Shown here: piece by piece, positions 49,928 to 57,723 of the stretch
How positions within the stretch are numbered: position 1 is the stretch's first letter
How the letters are laid out: the number at the start of each line of letters is the position of its first letter
NCBI GenBank assembly: GCA_028822845.1
Contig: JAPKCS010000002.1
Coordinates: 1 to 64,000, forward strand
Source of the DNA: Candidatus Poseidoniaceae archaeon
GTDB taxonomy: Archaea; Thermoplasmatota; Poseidoniia; Poseidoniales; Poseidoniaceae
Length of the DNA: 64,000 nt
Reading direction: 5' to 3'
Position numbers and translations under genes: made by a program
Notes under the pieces: model-generated
Database searches by the model: none
The model's input: the letters and a program-made list of their open reading frames with translations, nothing else
Told to the model about the DNA's origin: nothing

Positions 49928-50391
49928 TGCATCACCAATTCAGAAGTCCGGAGGGACCAATTGAGGTGACCGTGGCGAAGCAAGGAGAATCTTGGTACCT
50001 TGGTTCGCTTGAAGCAACGCCCATGCCAGACGGGCGTCTTCGTATCCTCAATGATGACGGGACGGTCATGTTTGCCCACCTCGTCAAAGTTGGCGATGTG
50101 TGGTGGGTTCACGTCGACGGTCATACGTTCAAGTTGGAACGGGTTGAACCAGGAGCTTCTGATACCGATGATGGCGGGGGCTTGACTGCTCCAATGCCTG
50201 GAAAGGTTTTGCAAGTGCTTGTGGATGTTGGACAAACGGTGTCATCTGGGACCACGCTCATGGTTCTTGAAGCGATGAAGATGGAACACCGAATCGTCGC
50301 AGCCAGCGATGGAACCGTCACTGCAGTTCACTTCGGTGCAGGTGATCAAGTCGAACAAGGCGTTGCCCTATTGGCGCTCGAAGAATCATGA
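49924..50391 (+). CDS. Biotin carboxyl carrier protein subunit
   Basis: LTAPMPGKVLQVLVDVGQTVSSGTTLMVLEAMKMEHRIVA biotinylation motif; ATGA overlap with upstream gene. Confidence 0.93.
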   Translation: MMHHQFRSPEGPIEVTVAKQGESWYLGSLEATPMPDGRLRILNDDGTVMFAHLVKVGDVWWVHVDGHTFKLERVEPGASDTDDGGGLTAPMPGKVLQVLVDVGQTVSSGTTLMVLEAMKMEHRIVAASDGTVTAVHFGAGDQVEQGVALLALEES

Positions 50392-51270
50392 GTTGGCTGT
50401 TCGCCAATCGCCTGAGGCAATGACGACAGCGTCGTCCATGGTGCCGCTGTAAATGTAGGTCCACGCCCAAACCTTTTCGCCATCAACTTCGATTTCCATT
50501 AGTGTGCGTTGGAACAATGAATCAGCGGAATCAAATCCATAGAAGCCTTCGACGCGGTCAAGCGATTGAAGGCCGAGAAATACATTGCTCAGTTCGTGCA
50601 CTTCACCCAACACCCGTCCTTTGGGTTGTGTTAGCATGCCAGGGTAAGCACCCAGGTGATACAGTGTACCGGGAGCATCTGCCTTCCGATGGCCTTTGGT
50701 GGTGTGTTGAACTAATGTTTCGTAACGAACTTCATCTTGCATCAATGTGCCATAGACAAAGAGATGCTTTACGGGATAAGAATAGTCTAAGTTTTCAATT
50801 GCGTTTTTTAAATCTTCAATTGGAAGTTTTCTTTTATTCAGTCCGCCCTCAATAAGGCTGACATAATACGAAGTGGGGGGCACATACTCGCCTTGTTTGG
50901 CAGGTTGAAGTCGATAGGTGATGGCTTCAATTGATGACCCATCAGGCAAAAGGACGTTCACAGATGTTCTTCGGTAGGTGTTCGGATGGCCTTCCTTACG
51001 ATCCATGTTGGCAATTGCCTTCTCAGTCAAAGAAAACAGAACACCAGGGACCGCATGACCGCATCCAGCAGGGACCACATCTGCAGCCCCGCCTTCCCTT
51101 CGGAACGACCGATAGTGAAATTTCAATCGATGATCGGGCAACCAGCACGGTCCAAGTTCGACAACGCCGGACGGATCAACGCCTTTTTCCTCACACCAGA
51201 TGTTCCAATCATCGATGTCAAGGTTGGAGCCGTATCCAAAATACAGGGTCAAGTTATCTTCCGCCATCAA
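50386..51270 (-). CDS. Tandem gamma-glutamylcyclotransferase-like (GGCT/AIG2) two-domain protein
   Basis: N-domain LYFGYGSNLDIDDW...; C-domain HLFVYGTLMQDEVRYETLV...GTLYHLGAYPGMLTQPKGRVLGEVHEL. Confidence 0.82.
   Translation of the reverse strand: MMAEDNLTLYFGYGSNLDIDDWNIWCEEKGVDPSGVVELGPCWLPDHRLKFHYRSFRREGGAADVVPAGCGHAVPGVLFSLTEKAIANMDRKEGHPNTYRRTSVNVLLPDGSSIEAITYRLQPAKQGEYVPPTSYYVSLIEGGLNKRKLPIEDLKNAIENLDYSYPVKHLFVYGTLMQDEVRYETLVQHTTKGHRKADAPGTLYHLGAYPGMLTQPKGRVLGEVHELSNVFLGLQSLDRVEGFYGFDSADSLFQRTLMEIEVDGEKVWAWTYIYSGTMDDAVVIASGDWRTANS
50793..50826. repeat. Paired CAATTG element, copy 6 (21 bp spacing), in interdomain linker of GGCT protein
   Basis: TTTCAATTGCGTTTTTTAAATCTTCAATTGGAAG. Confidence 0.7.
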
Positions 51271-51306: not shown

Positions 51307-52599
51307 TCAGCCCCATTGACAAGGTTCGAGAACGGTTTGTCCGCCCATCAATGGTTGAAGGACTTCAGGTACATTCACTCGTCCATCTTCTCGTTGGTTT
51401 TGTTCCATGATCGCGACCAAGGCCCGAGAAGTGGCGACTGCGGTCGAATTTAGGGTGTGTGCAATTGGCTGGGCTGCGTGACCAGGTTGGCCATAGCGGA
51501 TCTGCAATCGGTTGGCTTGGTAATCTGTGCAGTTCGAACACGATACAATTTCTTTGTACTGATGTGCACCAGGAATCCATGCCTCAAGGTCGTACTTACG
51601 AGCTGCGACCGTCCCCATGTCTCCCGTACAGATGTTGACCACTTCGTAATGCATCCCAAGAGCGTCCCACAAATCGACGCAATTCTTCAGCAGTTCTTCC
51701 TGCAATGCCCACGATTGTTCTGGCTTTGCGATGATGATCTGTTCGATTTTGGTGAATTGGTGGACTCGCCAGATGCCCATGTCCGATTGGCCATGCGATC
51801 CGACTTCCCTGCGGAAGCACGGTGATACACCGACGATACGAAGGGGAAGGTCTGCCTCAGGAATTGTTTCATTCATGAACATCGCAGTCAAGGGGTGTTC
51901 TGCCGTTGCGATCATGTAGAAGTTGTCTGGCTCCACACCGTACATCACTGTTTCAAAATCTGCGAGGTCTGTGACGCCTTCATACGCCTCTCGGTTCATC
52001 ATGAGGGGTGGTTGAACGAAGGTGTAACCCCGTGCACGGATAAAGTCAACAGCGTACTGCTGAAGGGCGAGTTCTAACCTCGCAAGGTCTCCTTTGAGAA
52101 AGAAGAAACGACTGCCTGCAATCTTAGCTGCACGCTTGAGGTCGACCCATTTATTCATCTCAATGAGTTCATTATGAGTTCGTGCCTCAAAGGTGAACTC
52201 CGGTTTTACCCCATGCACGCTGTGGACGGTGTTGCCAGATTCATCAGCCCCTTCTGGGACATCTTCGTGGAGGATGTTTGGGATGCGCATTCGGAGGCGA
52301 TCTCGCTCTGCTACCGCTTCCTCAGTTTGTTTTTCAAGCTCGGTAATTTGAGCCCCTAAGTCAGCCACCTCTGCCAGTATTCGTTGTGCAGCGGCTTGAT
52401 CACCTGATTTCTTTGCCGCTCCAATACCACGTGCAGCAGCGTTCTTTGTCGCACGAAGTTGGTTTGTCTCGTGTTGAAGGTTGATCCATGTTTGATCTAA
52501 TTCAATGACACTGTCGATGTGATTGTGGGGGATGCCACGCTTGTCGTGGTCCTTTCGGATCACTTCTGGAGTTGTTCTGAACATGTTGATGTCGAGCAT
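51307..52599 (-). CDS. serS: Seryl-tRNA synthetase
   Basis: MLDINMFRTTPEVIRKDHDKRG...RGYTFVQPPLMMNREAYEG...VSPCFRREVGSHGQSDMGIWRVHQFTKIEQ...NSTAVATSRALVAIMEQNQREDG. Confidence 0.97.
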   Translation of the reverse strand: MLDINMFRTTPEVIRKDHDKRGIPHNHIDSVIELDQTWINLQHETNQLRATKNAAARGIGAAKKSGDQAAAQRILAEVADLGAQITELEKQTEEAVAERDRLRMRIPNILHEDVPEGADESGNTVHSVHGVKPEFTFEARTHNELIEMNKWVDLKRAAKIAGSRFFFLKGDLARLELALQQYAVDFIRARGYTFVQPPLMMNREAYEGVTDLADFETVMYGVEPDNFYMIATAEHPLTAMFMNETIPEADLPLRIVGVSPCFRREVGSHGQSDMGIWRVHQFTKIEQIIIAKPEQSWALQEELLKNCVDLWDALGMHYEVVNICTGDMGTVAARKYDLEAWIPGAHQYKEIVSCSNCTDYQANRLQIRYGQPGHAAQPIAHTLNSTAVATSRALVAIMEQNQREDGRVNVPEVLQPLMGGQTVLEPCQWG

Positions 52600-52610
52600 A
52601 CTAAATCACC

Positions 52611-54815
52611 TCAGAACGAAATTCCAAATTCAAAAATAGCTGAACCAACGAAGATGTAGCCGCCGATGATGTAGCCGAGGATCGAACCACCATTGAGGAG
52701 CGGTAGCCCAGCTTGTGCCTTGCCACGGGCGACATAGGTCATCAGTGCAAAATAGCCGAAGATACCACCGATGAGGGTGGAAATGGCCACGGCGAAAGCA
52801 CCGCTATGGTCAAGCCACTGCGCAGCGGAAAGGACCAGCATGCCAGGGAAAATGACATCGCCAAGACCCATGAACATAGCATTCTTGCCCTTCTTCTTTT
52901 TCTTCGGGGCGTTCTTACCCGGAGGAGCGGGAGGTGCGTTCTTGTCTCGCATTGTTGTGGTCTCTTCAACAAAGGAGTAGCCCTTTTCCTGAGGTGCAAC
53001 AAGAAGGATTGGAAGCCGCAAATTGATCATGGTATCCGCTAAATCGAGCATGTGCTTTGATTTGTACACTGCCCAAGCATCATAAATTGCTGCAGCGATC
53101 ATGAACACGATGATCAGGGTCGGTACAAACGCCACTCCAAGCATCACGATGACACCAGAACCAACGAGGACACCGACGGTGTTGACGACGTACCATTCGC
53201 TGTGGAGGTACAAGAGAACCATCAGCACAAGTGCGACAAGAACACCAAGGATTAGCGGTGCATCGTACATTTGAAGTCCACTCACAACATCCATATCTGG
53301 CGTAATCACGCCCGTTTCTACTGAAACAAGCCCGTTCTCATACATGGCATTGAAATGGGTTGCTCCGTCTTCATCCATGGAAAACCAACCTGTTTGGAAA
53401 CCGTCTTTGACATCCAAACTAATTTTATCCAAAAGGGAAGTTGTCCACAACCAATGTGCCTGATCTTGGGTGGTAATGAGCATGTCAGTGTAGCCTGAAG
53501 CATCTCGGTCCGAAAGGCGGACGGATTGGATGGAATCTCCGAAACCAAGCAACTTCATGCCAATTTGTTCGGAGAAGGCGGGGTCAAGGCTTGCGTTCCA
53601 TTCGAAACCTCTGACGTCGCCATTTTCTTCACCTAGGAGGATCAATCCCTCAGTAGAGGATTGATTTTCAAGGGTTGATTCCGACCACGGTGAGAGCCCA
53701 AAGTCAGCTGAAGTGATGTTGCTCGTAGCGTTGTGTTGGAACAACACGGTTGCGAAGTTGTTGACTTCAGGGAAGTTTGGATCGAAGGCTGGTGCTGTTT
53801 CCTCGAGCAAGATTACAACGGCCATGTCCGGAGTGGCAATCAACACTTTGTCCTCATCGAGGACTTCGGCATGAAGGGTCATAATGTGCGCATCAAGGCC
53901 CGTCGGAAGTCGCCATGTCGCTTGTTTCACCATCAGTCCAGGGTTGTCTTCAAAGGTGTTGAAGCGGTGAAGGAAACTACCTTCATCAACGATGTATATG
54001 GCTCCATTCGTATGGAAGGCAAGCATGCAAGCTGTACCAATTTCGGGGAGGTATTGCGAGTAGTTTTCCCCGTCTTCATTTGTTGCAAATTCGTGGCATG
54101 CGAAGGAATCGATTGTTTCTCCAGTACCAGCATCGACGTACCACACCCATGCACCGTTGGCAAATGTGAACACATCATCGTCGATCGTGGCTTGAATACG
54201 GTCGCCGTCCCCTGCTGGATAGCGTTCATGGCTGTTGATCCATGCTGGCGTGTCACTGGACATGTTATGGCCTTGGTAGAAGCTGACATTGTCGCCCCAT
54301 GTACCGGATCCACCCGTCAATTGGGTCATGAGATGCCCGTCAAGACCTGCATGTCCGAGCAGTGATGCATCATACGTTTCTGTTGTTTCAACAGCATATG
54401 GCTCAGAGTCGAGGTCAATCATGACCATGTGAGCCAATGGAACGGTTGAATACATCAAGGCAAGGGCAAGGACGCCCATGATACCGTATTTGATGACCCA
54501 GTCTTTCTTGTATTTGGCGAGGGCCAAGATACAGGCAGTAAAAATGAAGATCATGACCAATTCAAGAGCGATGTAACGGACTTGTGTGGCACCAGATTCG
54601 CCAAATGCATGCAGCCCAGCCACGTCATACCACGGGCGAATGAACAGAGATATAGCAATGGTTAGGATGAACATCCCCATCATACCGAGCATGGAGACCA
54701 TCTGCTCCTTCATGAGGTAAAACAGGCTGTCCTCTCGACGAAGTTCAGCTTGAACCGCCTCGAATTCTTTTGACACCTTTTTCGAGGGGGCGGAGGGCAT
54801 CTTTTCTTCGCTCAT
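52611..54815 (-). CDS. Presenilin/signal-peptide-peptidase-like (A22) GxGD intramembrane protease with large extracytoplasmic insertion
   Basis: Active-site-like motifs in TMs: AAAIYDAWAVYKSKHM (YD), FMGLGDVIFPGML (GxGD), GLPLLNGGSILGY (PAL-like); several N-terminal TMs, then ~380 aa soluble beta-propeller-like domain, then further TMs. Confidence 0.85.
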   Translation of the reverse strand: MSEEKMPSAPSKKVSKEFEAVQAELRREDSLFYLMKEQMVSMLGMMGMFILTIAISLFIRPWYDVAGLHAFGESGATQVRYIALELVMIFIFTACILALAKYKKDWVIKYGIMGVLALALMYSTVPLAHMVMIDLDSEPYAVETTETYDASLLGHAGLDGHLMTQLTGGSGTWGDNVSFYQGHNMSSDTPAWINSHERYPAGDGDRIQATIDDDVFTFANGAWVWYVDAGTGETIDSFACHEFATNEDGENYSQYLPEIGTACMLAFHTNGAIYIVDEGSFLHRFNTFEDNPGLMVKQATWRLPTGLDAHIMTLHAEVLDEDKVLIATPDMAVVILLEETAPAFDPNFPEVNNFATVLFQHNATSNITSADFGLSPWSESTLENQSSTEGLILLGEENGDVRGFEWNASLDPAFSEQIGMKLLGFGDSIQSVRLSDRDASGYTDMLITTQDQAHWLWTTSLLDKISLDVKDGFQTGWFSMDEDGATHFNAMYENGLVSVETGVITPDMDVVSGLQMYDAPLILGVLVALVLMVLLYLHSEWYVVNTVGVLVGSGVIVMLGVAFVPTLIIVFMIAAAIYDAWAVYKSKHMLDLADTMINLRLPILLVAPQEKGYSFVEETTTMRDKNAPPAPPGKNAPKKKKKGKNAMFMGLGDVIFPGMLVLSAAQWLDHSGAFAVAISTLIGGIFGYFALMTYVARGKAQAGLPLLNGGSILGYIIGGYIFVGSAIFEFGISF

Positions 54816-54951
54816 GTTAACTCGGAGTTCGCGTTTGCATATCAGTATGGTGTATCTCAACGCCCCCTACGGGGGCGGATAAACTGCTTGTCAAGACAAG
54901 GCAAGAGGCTATTCACCAAAGGCGGCGTCGAGCAACAGGAGGGGGTTTGGA

Positions 54952-56241
54952 TTGAGCGATGCAAGGGTTTGGCTCGAAGCCACAAAAAAGCGAGGTATGG
55001 CGCTTGGTCTTAAGCACACAAAGACCGTCCTGGATCGCCTTCAATTGGCCCACCGGCCTGCGCATATCCTCCATGTTGCAGGCAGCAACGGAAAGGGCAC
55101 AGTATGCGCTTTGATGGCAGGTTCGCTGACAATTTCGAACATCTCGAACCTGCTCTTCACTTCACCTCATTTGATTCGAGTGGAGGAACGGATTCGGGTG
55201 AACGGTGTTCCTGTTGGTTCAGAACAGTTTGAAAGAGCCCTCCTCGCAGTTCATGACGCATCGATTGTTCACCCTGAAGTTCGCTTGACCTTTTTCGAAG
55301 TCACCTACCTAGCAGCGATGCATTGCGCCAGCGATTCTGGCGTCGAAGTCCTGATTCTAGAAACAGGATTGGGTGGACGAAAAGATGCCACAAGGTCGGG
55401 TCCAGCAACAGCATCGCTGGTGACGGCGATCAGCACGGAGCACCGTGATATTCTGGGCGGTGACTTGGCCCAAATTGCTCGAGAAAAGGTGGCGATTGCT
55501 CGACCTGGCTGCCCGATCCTTCTCCGAAAACCTCAGGATGCATTGGTTGAACAAGCCATGCGTGGCGAAGTGGCCATGGCAGGCCAAACCGAACTTGGAG
55601 AAACCCCTGGAAAGGCGTTTGAGACCTTTGTTGCAATCGACGCATCAACATCGGTACGCAGGGAGGCTCTGGTGTTGGCAGATGCGCTGTTTGCTGCTGT
55701 TGGCTTACCGACAGAAGGCTTGGAGAAAGCCTACTCTCAAGTCAATTGGCCTGCCCGCTTCCAAGACATCTCTTCACACTCATCTGGTTCTCATCCCTAC
55801 CTGTTGGACGCAGCGCATAATCCATCAGGGTTGCAACGGGTCCTTGCCCAATTGGAACAGCGCATCAAAGTTGCATCGGAGGCGGAAGGGCAAGGTTGGA
55901 GTCTCCTTTTCGGCACTTCACCTCAACATGATCTTGCTTCTTTTTGCCAACCTTTGATGACCCTTTGTGCACGTTATCCACCTCGACAAATTGTCCTCAC
56001 TGAGCCGCAAGGCGGTCGGTACCCTGCAGTTTCGAATGCTACTTTGCACGCACTGACATGGCCTTGCAGCACTGTGACTCCAATCGCCCTACCAAGCGAT
56101 GCAGTCGAGCACTTCTCAACCCAAGCCCCAGAGAATGTTGGGTTAATCATCAGCCTCGGTTCCCTGTACATGCAAGGGAATCTGCTTGAATGCTTTGGGC
56201 ACACCAGCGATGAACACCTGTCGTTGCTGGCGAAGCAATGA
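54952..56241 (+). CDS. folC: Folylpolyglutamate/dihydrofolate synthase (Mur ligase family)
   Basis: HVAGSNGKGTVCALMAGSL...FTSPHLIRVEERIRVNG...ILETGLGGRKDATRS; TTG start with GGAGGGGG SD. Confidence 0.93.
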   Translation: MSDARVWLEATKKRGMALGLKHTKTVLDRLQLAHRPAHILHVAGSNGKGTVCALMAGSLTISNISNLLFTSPHLIRVEERIRVNGVPVGSEQFERALLAVHDASIVHPEVRLTFFEVTYLAAMHCASDSGVEVLILETGLGGRKDATRSGPATASLVTAISTEHRDILGGDLAQIAREKVAIARPGCPILLRKPQDALVEQAMRGEVAMAGQTELGETPGKAFETFVAIDASTSVRREALVLADALFAAVGLPTEGLEKAYSQVNWPARFQDISSHSSGSHPYLLDAAHNPSGLQRVLAQLEQRIKVASEAEGQGWSLLFGTSPQHDLASFCQPLMTLCARYPPRQIVLTEPQGGRYPAVSNATLHALTWPCSTVTPIALPSDAVEHFSTQAPENVGLIISLGSLYMQGNLLECFGHTSDEHLSLLAKQ

Positions 56242-56772: not shown

Positions 56773-57723
56773 ATGTGGGGTTATACGCGGGTGCTGTGCC
56801 TCACCGCCCTGCTGCTGATGTCCGGTTGTGTCACACCCACTGTGCCTCTTGACAGGGTGGAAGACGACACACCAATGGTGGATGAAGATGCATGCAATGG
56901 CTTGGTCGTCTTGTGCGCTCGAATGTATGATGAAGTCACCTTCCCTGAAACCCACAATGCCTTTTCGACCCACGATGACGGAATTTTCTATCCAGCTGCG
57001 AACCATCAAACCGGTTTGCTGGCCCAATGGAACGCTGGAATGAGAGCGTTCATGATCGATACCCATTACGAAACCCTTGGCGATGAACGCGTTGAAACTG
57101 TCCGTCTCTGCCATGGCGATGATGATCGTGGCTTCAGTCCCTGCACCTATGGAAATGTAGACGCTGAGTCTTGGTTGAGCCAACTGAAAGGACTGATGGA
57201 CGGCTCACCAAACGATGTTGTCACCTTGCTTGTTGAGAACTATGTTCAACCAGATCACCTTCAAGTCGTGTTTGAAAATGCAGCAATGTACGACCGTGCG
57301 TTTGTTCATTCCATGAACGACCCTTGGCCAACGCTGGGCGAATTGATCGCTGATCAGACACCGCTTGTTGTGTTCTGGGAACAAGGGCCCGATTTGGCTC
57401 ATCCTTGGATTCATGACTTCCTTACCCACAGTTGGACCACCAATTTCGCAGAGGAGAACACTGAGGACATGAACTGCGACCCACTTCGTGGTGATCCGGA
57501 GCAAGAAGTCTATCACATGAACAACTGGTTGCGGGGCCCTCTTGGTCTTTCAGATCCAAGCCGTGGTTCTGAAGCAAATGACGTTGACTTCTTGATTGAA
57601 CGTGCAACTGAATGCTGGATTCAACATGGAAAGCGCCCAACCTTCATCGCTGTTGACTGGTGGGAAGACGGCGATGTCGTGGCCGCAGCCCTCGCCCTGA
57701 ATCAAATGGATTCACCTGTTTAA
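56773..57723 (+). CDS. Lipoprotein with PI-PLC-X-like (PLC-like phosphodiesterase) domain
   Basis: Lipobox LLMSGC; TFPETHNAFSTHDDG, QWNAGMRAFMIDTHYETLG, VRLCHGDDDRGFSPCTYG, DVVTLLVENY resemble the PLC-like phosphodiesterase fold. Confidence 0.75.
   Translation: MWGYTRVLCLTALLLMSGCVTPTVPLDRVEDDTPMVDEDACNGLVVLCARMYDEVTFPETHNAFSTHDDGIFYPAANHQTGLLAQWNAGMRAFMIDTHYETLGDERVETVRLCHGDDDRGFSPCTYGNVDAESWLSQLKGLMDGSPNDVVTLLVENYVQPDHLQVVFENAAMYDRAFVHSMNDPWPTLGELIADQTPLVVFWEQGPDLAHPWIHDFLTHSWTTNFAEENTEDMNCDPLRGDPEQEVYHMNNWLRGPLGLSDPSRGSEANDVDFLIERATECWIQHGKRPTFIAVDWWEDGDVVAAALALNQMDSPV

Follow-up and report, generated by a model that had tools for sequence, protein, structure and literature searches.

The window, that is, the 64,000 nucleotides of contig JAPKCS010000002.1 of a Candidatus Poseidoniaceae archaeon that were analyzed, encodes a 734-aa protein that is beyond doubt an archaeal presenilin/SPP homolog (PSH) of the A22 type, with predicted proteolytic activity. 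Its loop between the transmembrane (TM) helices TM3 and TM4 carries an insert that reads as a beta-propeller, with about seven blades in the structural model. This architecture is real, lineage-wide, and well bounded; the insert is lineage-specific, not unique, and of inferred function. The features of the protein are listed in Table 1.

Table 1. Features of the long-form PSH, with coordinates in the window
Feature	Coordinates	Strand	Basis
Entire long-form PSH, an intramembrane aspartyl protease of the PSH/SPP type (734 aa and stop codon)	52611..54815	(-)	ORF and profile matches
TM1-TM3 block, residues 31-132	54420..54725	(-)	AlphaFold2 helices 31-65, 79-101, and 105-132
Predicted extracytoplasmic beta-propeller domain, residues ~140-505	53301..54398	(-)	AlphaFold2, Foldseek, and profile matches
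Cys240...Cys263 span, probable disulfide	54027..54098	(-)	Neither Cys varies across 73 Poseidoniaceae sequences
TM4-TM9 catalytic block, residues 518-728	52632..53264	(-)	Aligns to PDB 4hyc 106-292; AlphaFold2 helices
YD motif with catalytic D579, the first Asp of the pair, in TM6 (helix 565-585)	53079..53084	(-)	Invariant in both alignments
GLGD motif with catalytic D653, the second Asp of the pair, at TM7 start (helix 651-667)	52857..52868	(-)	Invariant in both alignments
PLL (PAL-equivalent) motif, P705-L707, before TM9	52695..52703	(-)	Invariant

RESULTS

Family membership and catalytic motifs

On the minus strand, the open reading frame ran from 54860 to 52611, and the ATG at 54815 is the likeliest start. 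The 734-aa protein matched the NCBIfam PSH equivalog NF041679 with 224.4 bits (cut-off 125), Pfam SPP (PF06550) with an E value of 4.9e-52 and 177.6 bits (cut-off 23.9), and the PDB PSH 4hyc with 3.3e-29 over residues 524 to 721, covering TM4-TM9. The motifs YD (AAIYDAWAVY), GLGD (MFMGLGDVIFPG), and LPLLNGG (residues 704 to 710) were invariant across the alignments, except for one Gly of the last motif. PLL was taken as a normal variant of PAL, because the biochemically characterized archaeal enzyme MCMJR1 has PPL instead of PAL at the same place (PMC2947513). The protein combined a profile score above the family cut-off, the aspartates of YD and GxGD on neighboring TM helices, the P-x-L motif, and nine TM helices. 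The first-pass annotation had called an A22-type GxGD protease, which was borne out by the NF041679, Pfam SPP, and PDB PSH matches and by the motifs, and the catalytic aspartates did lie inside TM helices of the model, D579 in TM6 and D653 at the start of TM7. It was the sole SPP-family gene found in its genome, which is 92% complete.

Membrane topology

Orthologue hydropathy and the AlphaFold2 model gave nine TM helices, three before the insert and six after it. A profile built from short PSHs matched the TM1-TM3 block with 47.7 bits, compared to 7.7 bits for the best of 200 shuffles; this block is native to the PSH family, and the protein is therefore a PSH with an insert, with no foreign N terminus fused on. 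The standard nine-TM presenilin topology predicts the TM3-TM4 loop outside the cell. The loops predicted inside (TM2-3, TM6-7, and TM8-9) contained 3, 13, and 2 K/R residues, respectively, the short outside loops contained none, and the ectodomain contained 12 K/R versus 61 D/E. The conserved Cys pair of the propeller domain, its marked acidity, and the positive-inside rule place it outside the cell, and the extracytoplasmic side proposed earlier for the insertion is supported by the loop K/R distribution, the acidic ectodomain, and the Cys pair.

Fold and boundaries of the ectodomain

The insert is located between TM3 and TM4, with ~380 residues between these helices, of which the propeller takes up ~365. 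The ~380-aa insertion agreed with the first-pass annotation, which had set the domain at 53225 to 54350 after the first TM helices, and the modeled bounds between TM3 and TM4 are slightly offset from that span (Table 1). The AlphaFold2 model was built on an alignment of 73 relatives, all Poseidoniaceae sequences; a single-sequence run reached a pLDDT of 39 and was discarded. The modeled ectodomain was all-beta with about 28 to 30 strands and a pLDDT mostly of 85 to 93, and the orientation of the propeller relative to the TM helices was uncertain (pTM 0.60; junction pLDDT 55 to 65).

The Foldseek search against the PDB gave 899 matches at E ≤ 0.001, and the best 50 of these 899, which were listed, were beta-propellers or large assemblies with propellers, including WD40, BamB, the clathrin N-terminal domain, and designed eight-blade proteins. 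The best values for the predicted model were a probability of 1.00 and a TM score of up to 0.59, normalized to the propeller length. These matches and the all-beta model support the propeller-like nature suspected earlier. A sequence profile of 37 ectodomains matched the designed propeller Cake8 at 5e-7, a value inflated by the repetitive targets, and WD40 SMU1 at 0.0036. The window ectodomain alone matched no Pfam family, and weak matches to the BBS7 propeller, FG-GAP, and RSE1 were obtained in a few relatives. The propeller claim is held at fold level only, because no named propeller family reached its cut-off. Profile self-comparison of the ectodomain gave no blade repeats, and since repeats were not detectable by sequence, the blade number of about seven is that of the model. 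Across 68 long forms, the ectodomains contained mostly exactly two Cys residues, sometimes 3 to 6, and a disulfide between Cys240 and Cys263 probably stabilizes the propeller.

The survey of Raut, Glass, and Lieberman from 2021 reportedly notes that intramembrane aspartyl proteases from marine Euryarchaeota, probably the same long-form PSHs as here, contain an extra domain that is putatively BtuF-like. The extra domain itself has thus probably been seen before, and the fold-based propeller reading is what differs. BtuF has an alpha/beta two-lobe fold, unlike the all-beta model of the ectodomain. Peripla_BP_2 (PF01497) had no match at the PSH locus even at an E value of 10, although it matched elsewhere in the genome, and no BtuF-type chain in the PDB was matched by the ectodomain profile. 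No publication in the literature searched linked a propeller domain such as this one to presenilin-type proteases.

Distribution of long and short forms

The survey was phylum-wide, with other archaeal phyla covered by control genomes only. The PSH gene was present in 307 of the 347 genomes of the class. The long form, usually 690 to 800 aa, was found in all 11 sampled genera of Poseidoniaceae (MGIIa), and the ectodomain was open, predicted folded, and 335 to 406 aa long in 15 genera. In the sister family, 4 of 11 genera had the long form and 7 a short form of 340 to 420 aa, whereas the third family of the class (f3) had a PSH of ~300 aa. Most families across the phylum had PSHs of 280 to 360 aa without the insert, and a TM3-TM4 insert was also present in families f8, f11, f17, f25, f31, and probably f27. 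Whether the insertion is standard in the family, which the first-pass annotation had made decisive for its reading, therefore has a divided answer: it is standard in Poseidoniaceae, occurs also in part of the sister family and in several other families, and is absent from most PSHs. Short forms without the insert retained all catalytic motifs. Searched with the ectodomain profile, 40 relatives had no stand-alone copy, and genomes with the short form had no match.

Genus g2 (L013, L022, L029, L030, L031, and L042) had PLLNSG in place of PLLNGG and the shortest ectodomain, 335 to 337 aa. The sister-family genome G301 contained two long-form PSH genes (L082 and L083) on separate contigs, for which its 4% contamination may account. 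A Poseidoniaceae PSH was also contained in record L179, titled Verrucomicrobiales bacterium ARS100, probably a mis-binned contig.

Evolutionary history and divergence

The tree was built from the TM core alone, with the inserts cut out first, as hmmalign on uncut long forms could not place TM1-TM3. Two changes between the long and short states sufficed on this tree, one on the branch dividing short relatives from long forms and Poseidoniales (99/93), and the other at the short sister-family genera, which formed one clade (99/99) nested among long ones. The AU test did not reject a tree in which the Poseidoniales long forms grouped as a single clade (P = 0.22). The most parsimonious and plainest reading is that the insert was gained once before Poseidoniales and lost once in a sister-family subclade with smaller genomes, and with such a loss, catalysis should not depend on the propeller.

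Pairwise comparison of the Poseidoniales insert with those of other families gave matches in the last-blade region for f8 (E = 2.5e-4) and f17 (1e-3). This sequence similarity suggests that the inserts of these two families are homologous to the Poseidoniales insert in that region only; for the families other than f8 and f17, the comparison did not show homology. Parallel gains at a permissive TM3-TM4 site are thus possible, since homology is suggested for two families and not shown for the rest. In one PSH of another family, f5 (L250:1489-2601, minus strand), the TM3-TM4 site held an insert of 96 aa that included a DUF11 (Ig-like) domain, and the loop evidently accepts different ectodomains.

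Relative to the window protein, median identity fell from 72% in the C-terminal and 61% in the N-terminal TM block to 23% in the ectodomain. The invariant ectodomain positions look structural (Trp, Gly, Cys, and Asp), and no pocket for a ligand stood out as conserved.

Genomic neighborhood

All sampled Poseidoniales loci that spanned 7 kb or more had homologs of serS and folC flanking or near the PSH gene (51307 to 56241 in the window). These neighbors gave no functional hint, and no partner gene was co-located. At 56773 to 57723 (plus strand), the window encodes a putative lipoprotein with an LMSGC lipobox, which by eye resembles a PLC-type phosphodiesterase and had no Pfam match at 0.01; it was also found near the PSH gene in genera g1 and g3. 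Fused gamma-glutamylcyclotransferase-like domains, AIG2_2 and GGACT, are encoded at 50386 to 51270 (minus strand).

DISCUSSION

Substrate choice by presenilin-type proteases is usually studied in the four-subunit gamma-secretase. We propose with moderate confidence that in the nine-TM PSH, the acidic propeller acts in cis as an extracytoplasmic cap that recruits substrates or filters them by size. The TM core would cleave TM segments, such as signal-peptide remnants and TM helices of other membrane proteins, by the usual di-aspartyl chemistry. The propeller, tethered above the membrane by TM3 and TM4, would serve as the cap, recruiting chosen envelope clients and/or excluding proteins with bulky ectodomains. 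The fast divergence of the ectodomain relative to both TM blocks is as expected for a recognition role and suggests that it faces variable partners; together with the structural-looking invariant residues and the lack of an evident pocket, it is easier to reconcile with a domain that recognizes or excludes variable envelope proteins than with one that binds a single conserved nutrient. Fast divergence is also expected of a loosely constrained spacer. More tentatively, the substrate gate in cis may be a propeller that arose once deep in the phylum and was lost a single time, leaving long and short orthologues as a natural experiment. If true, this single-polypeptide enzyme, whose ectodomain can be detached, and the sister species that have apparently lost it would make the contribution of the ectodomain directly measurable. 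A fold-based reading is at the same time given for a domain of abundant surface-ocean archaea.

The propeller could instead be a scaffold for assembly or quality control that docks the protease on envelope machinery, comparable to BamB on BamA, with the core performing signal-peptide clearance. Propellers are common protein-docking modules, BamB structures were among the listed Foldseek matches, and co-evolution with a partner is consistent with the fast divergence, but WD40-type propellers scored equal or higher, so the BamB match indicates the fold class only, and with no co-located partner gene this role is rather unlikely. A sensor of a nutrient or cofactor, e.g., a corrinoid or metal, controlling the protease would accord with the reported BtuF-like reading and with the ability of propellers to bind ligands; it appears improbable given the all-beta model, the lack of Peripla_BP_2 and BtuF-type matches, and the invariance of only structural-looking residues around no evident pocket. 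An insert that is tolerated but contributes nothing to proteolysis would be compatible with the dispensability implied by the intact catalytic motifs of short forms in one lineage and with the quick sequence drift. This is very improbable, since 15 genera have kept the domain open, Cys-bearing, and predicted to fold, and the presence of DUF11 at this site in a different family suggests that the site favors functional ectodomains.

The cis cap that we favor can be compared with known systems. The PSHs in the PDB (4hyc, 4hyd, 4hyg, and 4y6k) share with the window protein the TM4-TM9 block, the YD/GxGD pair, the P-x-L motif before TM9, and the nine-TM plan, but have 301 aa and no domain between TM3 and TM4. 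Eukaryotic SPP/SPPL (Peptidase_A22B) have the same motifs, but the Pfam match was weak (6e-4, under the cut-off), and the sequence is nearer to archaeal PSHs; we know of no TM3-TM4 propeller insert in SPP/SPPL. The match of the window PSH to Pfam Presenilin was likewise below the cut-off. In gamma-secretase, nicastrin is a separate subunit with a fold unrelated to the beta-propeller. Gamma-secretase resembles the long-form PSH in having a di-aspartyl presenilin-type core beneath a large extracellular domain, and differs in that the domain of the window PSH is fused in cis, as a predicted beta-propeller in the TM3-TM4 loop. Nicastrin sterically hinders substrates with long ectodomains (PMC7248309), and a nicastrin-like role in cis is plausible for the propeller as a functional analogy, not as shared ancestry.
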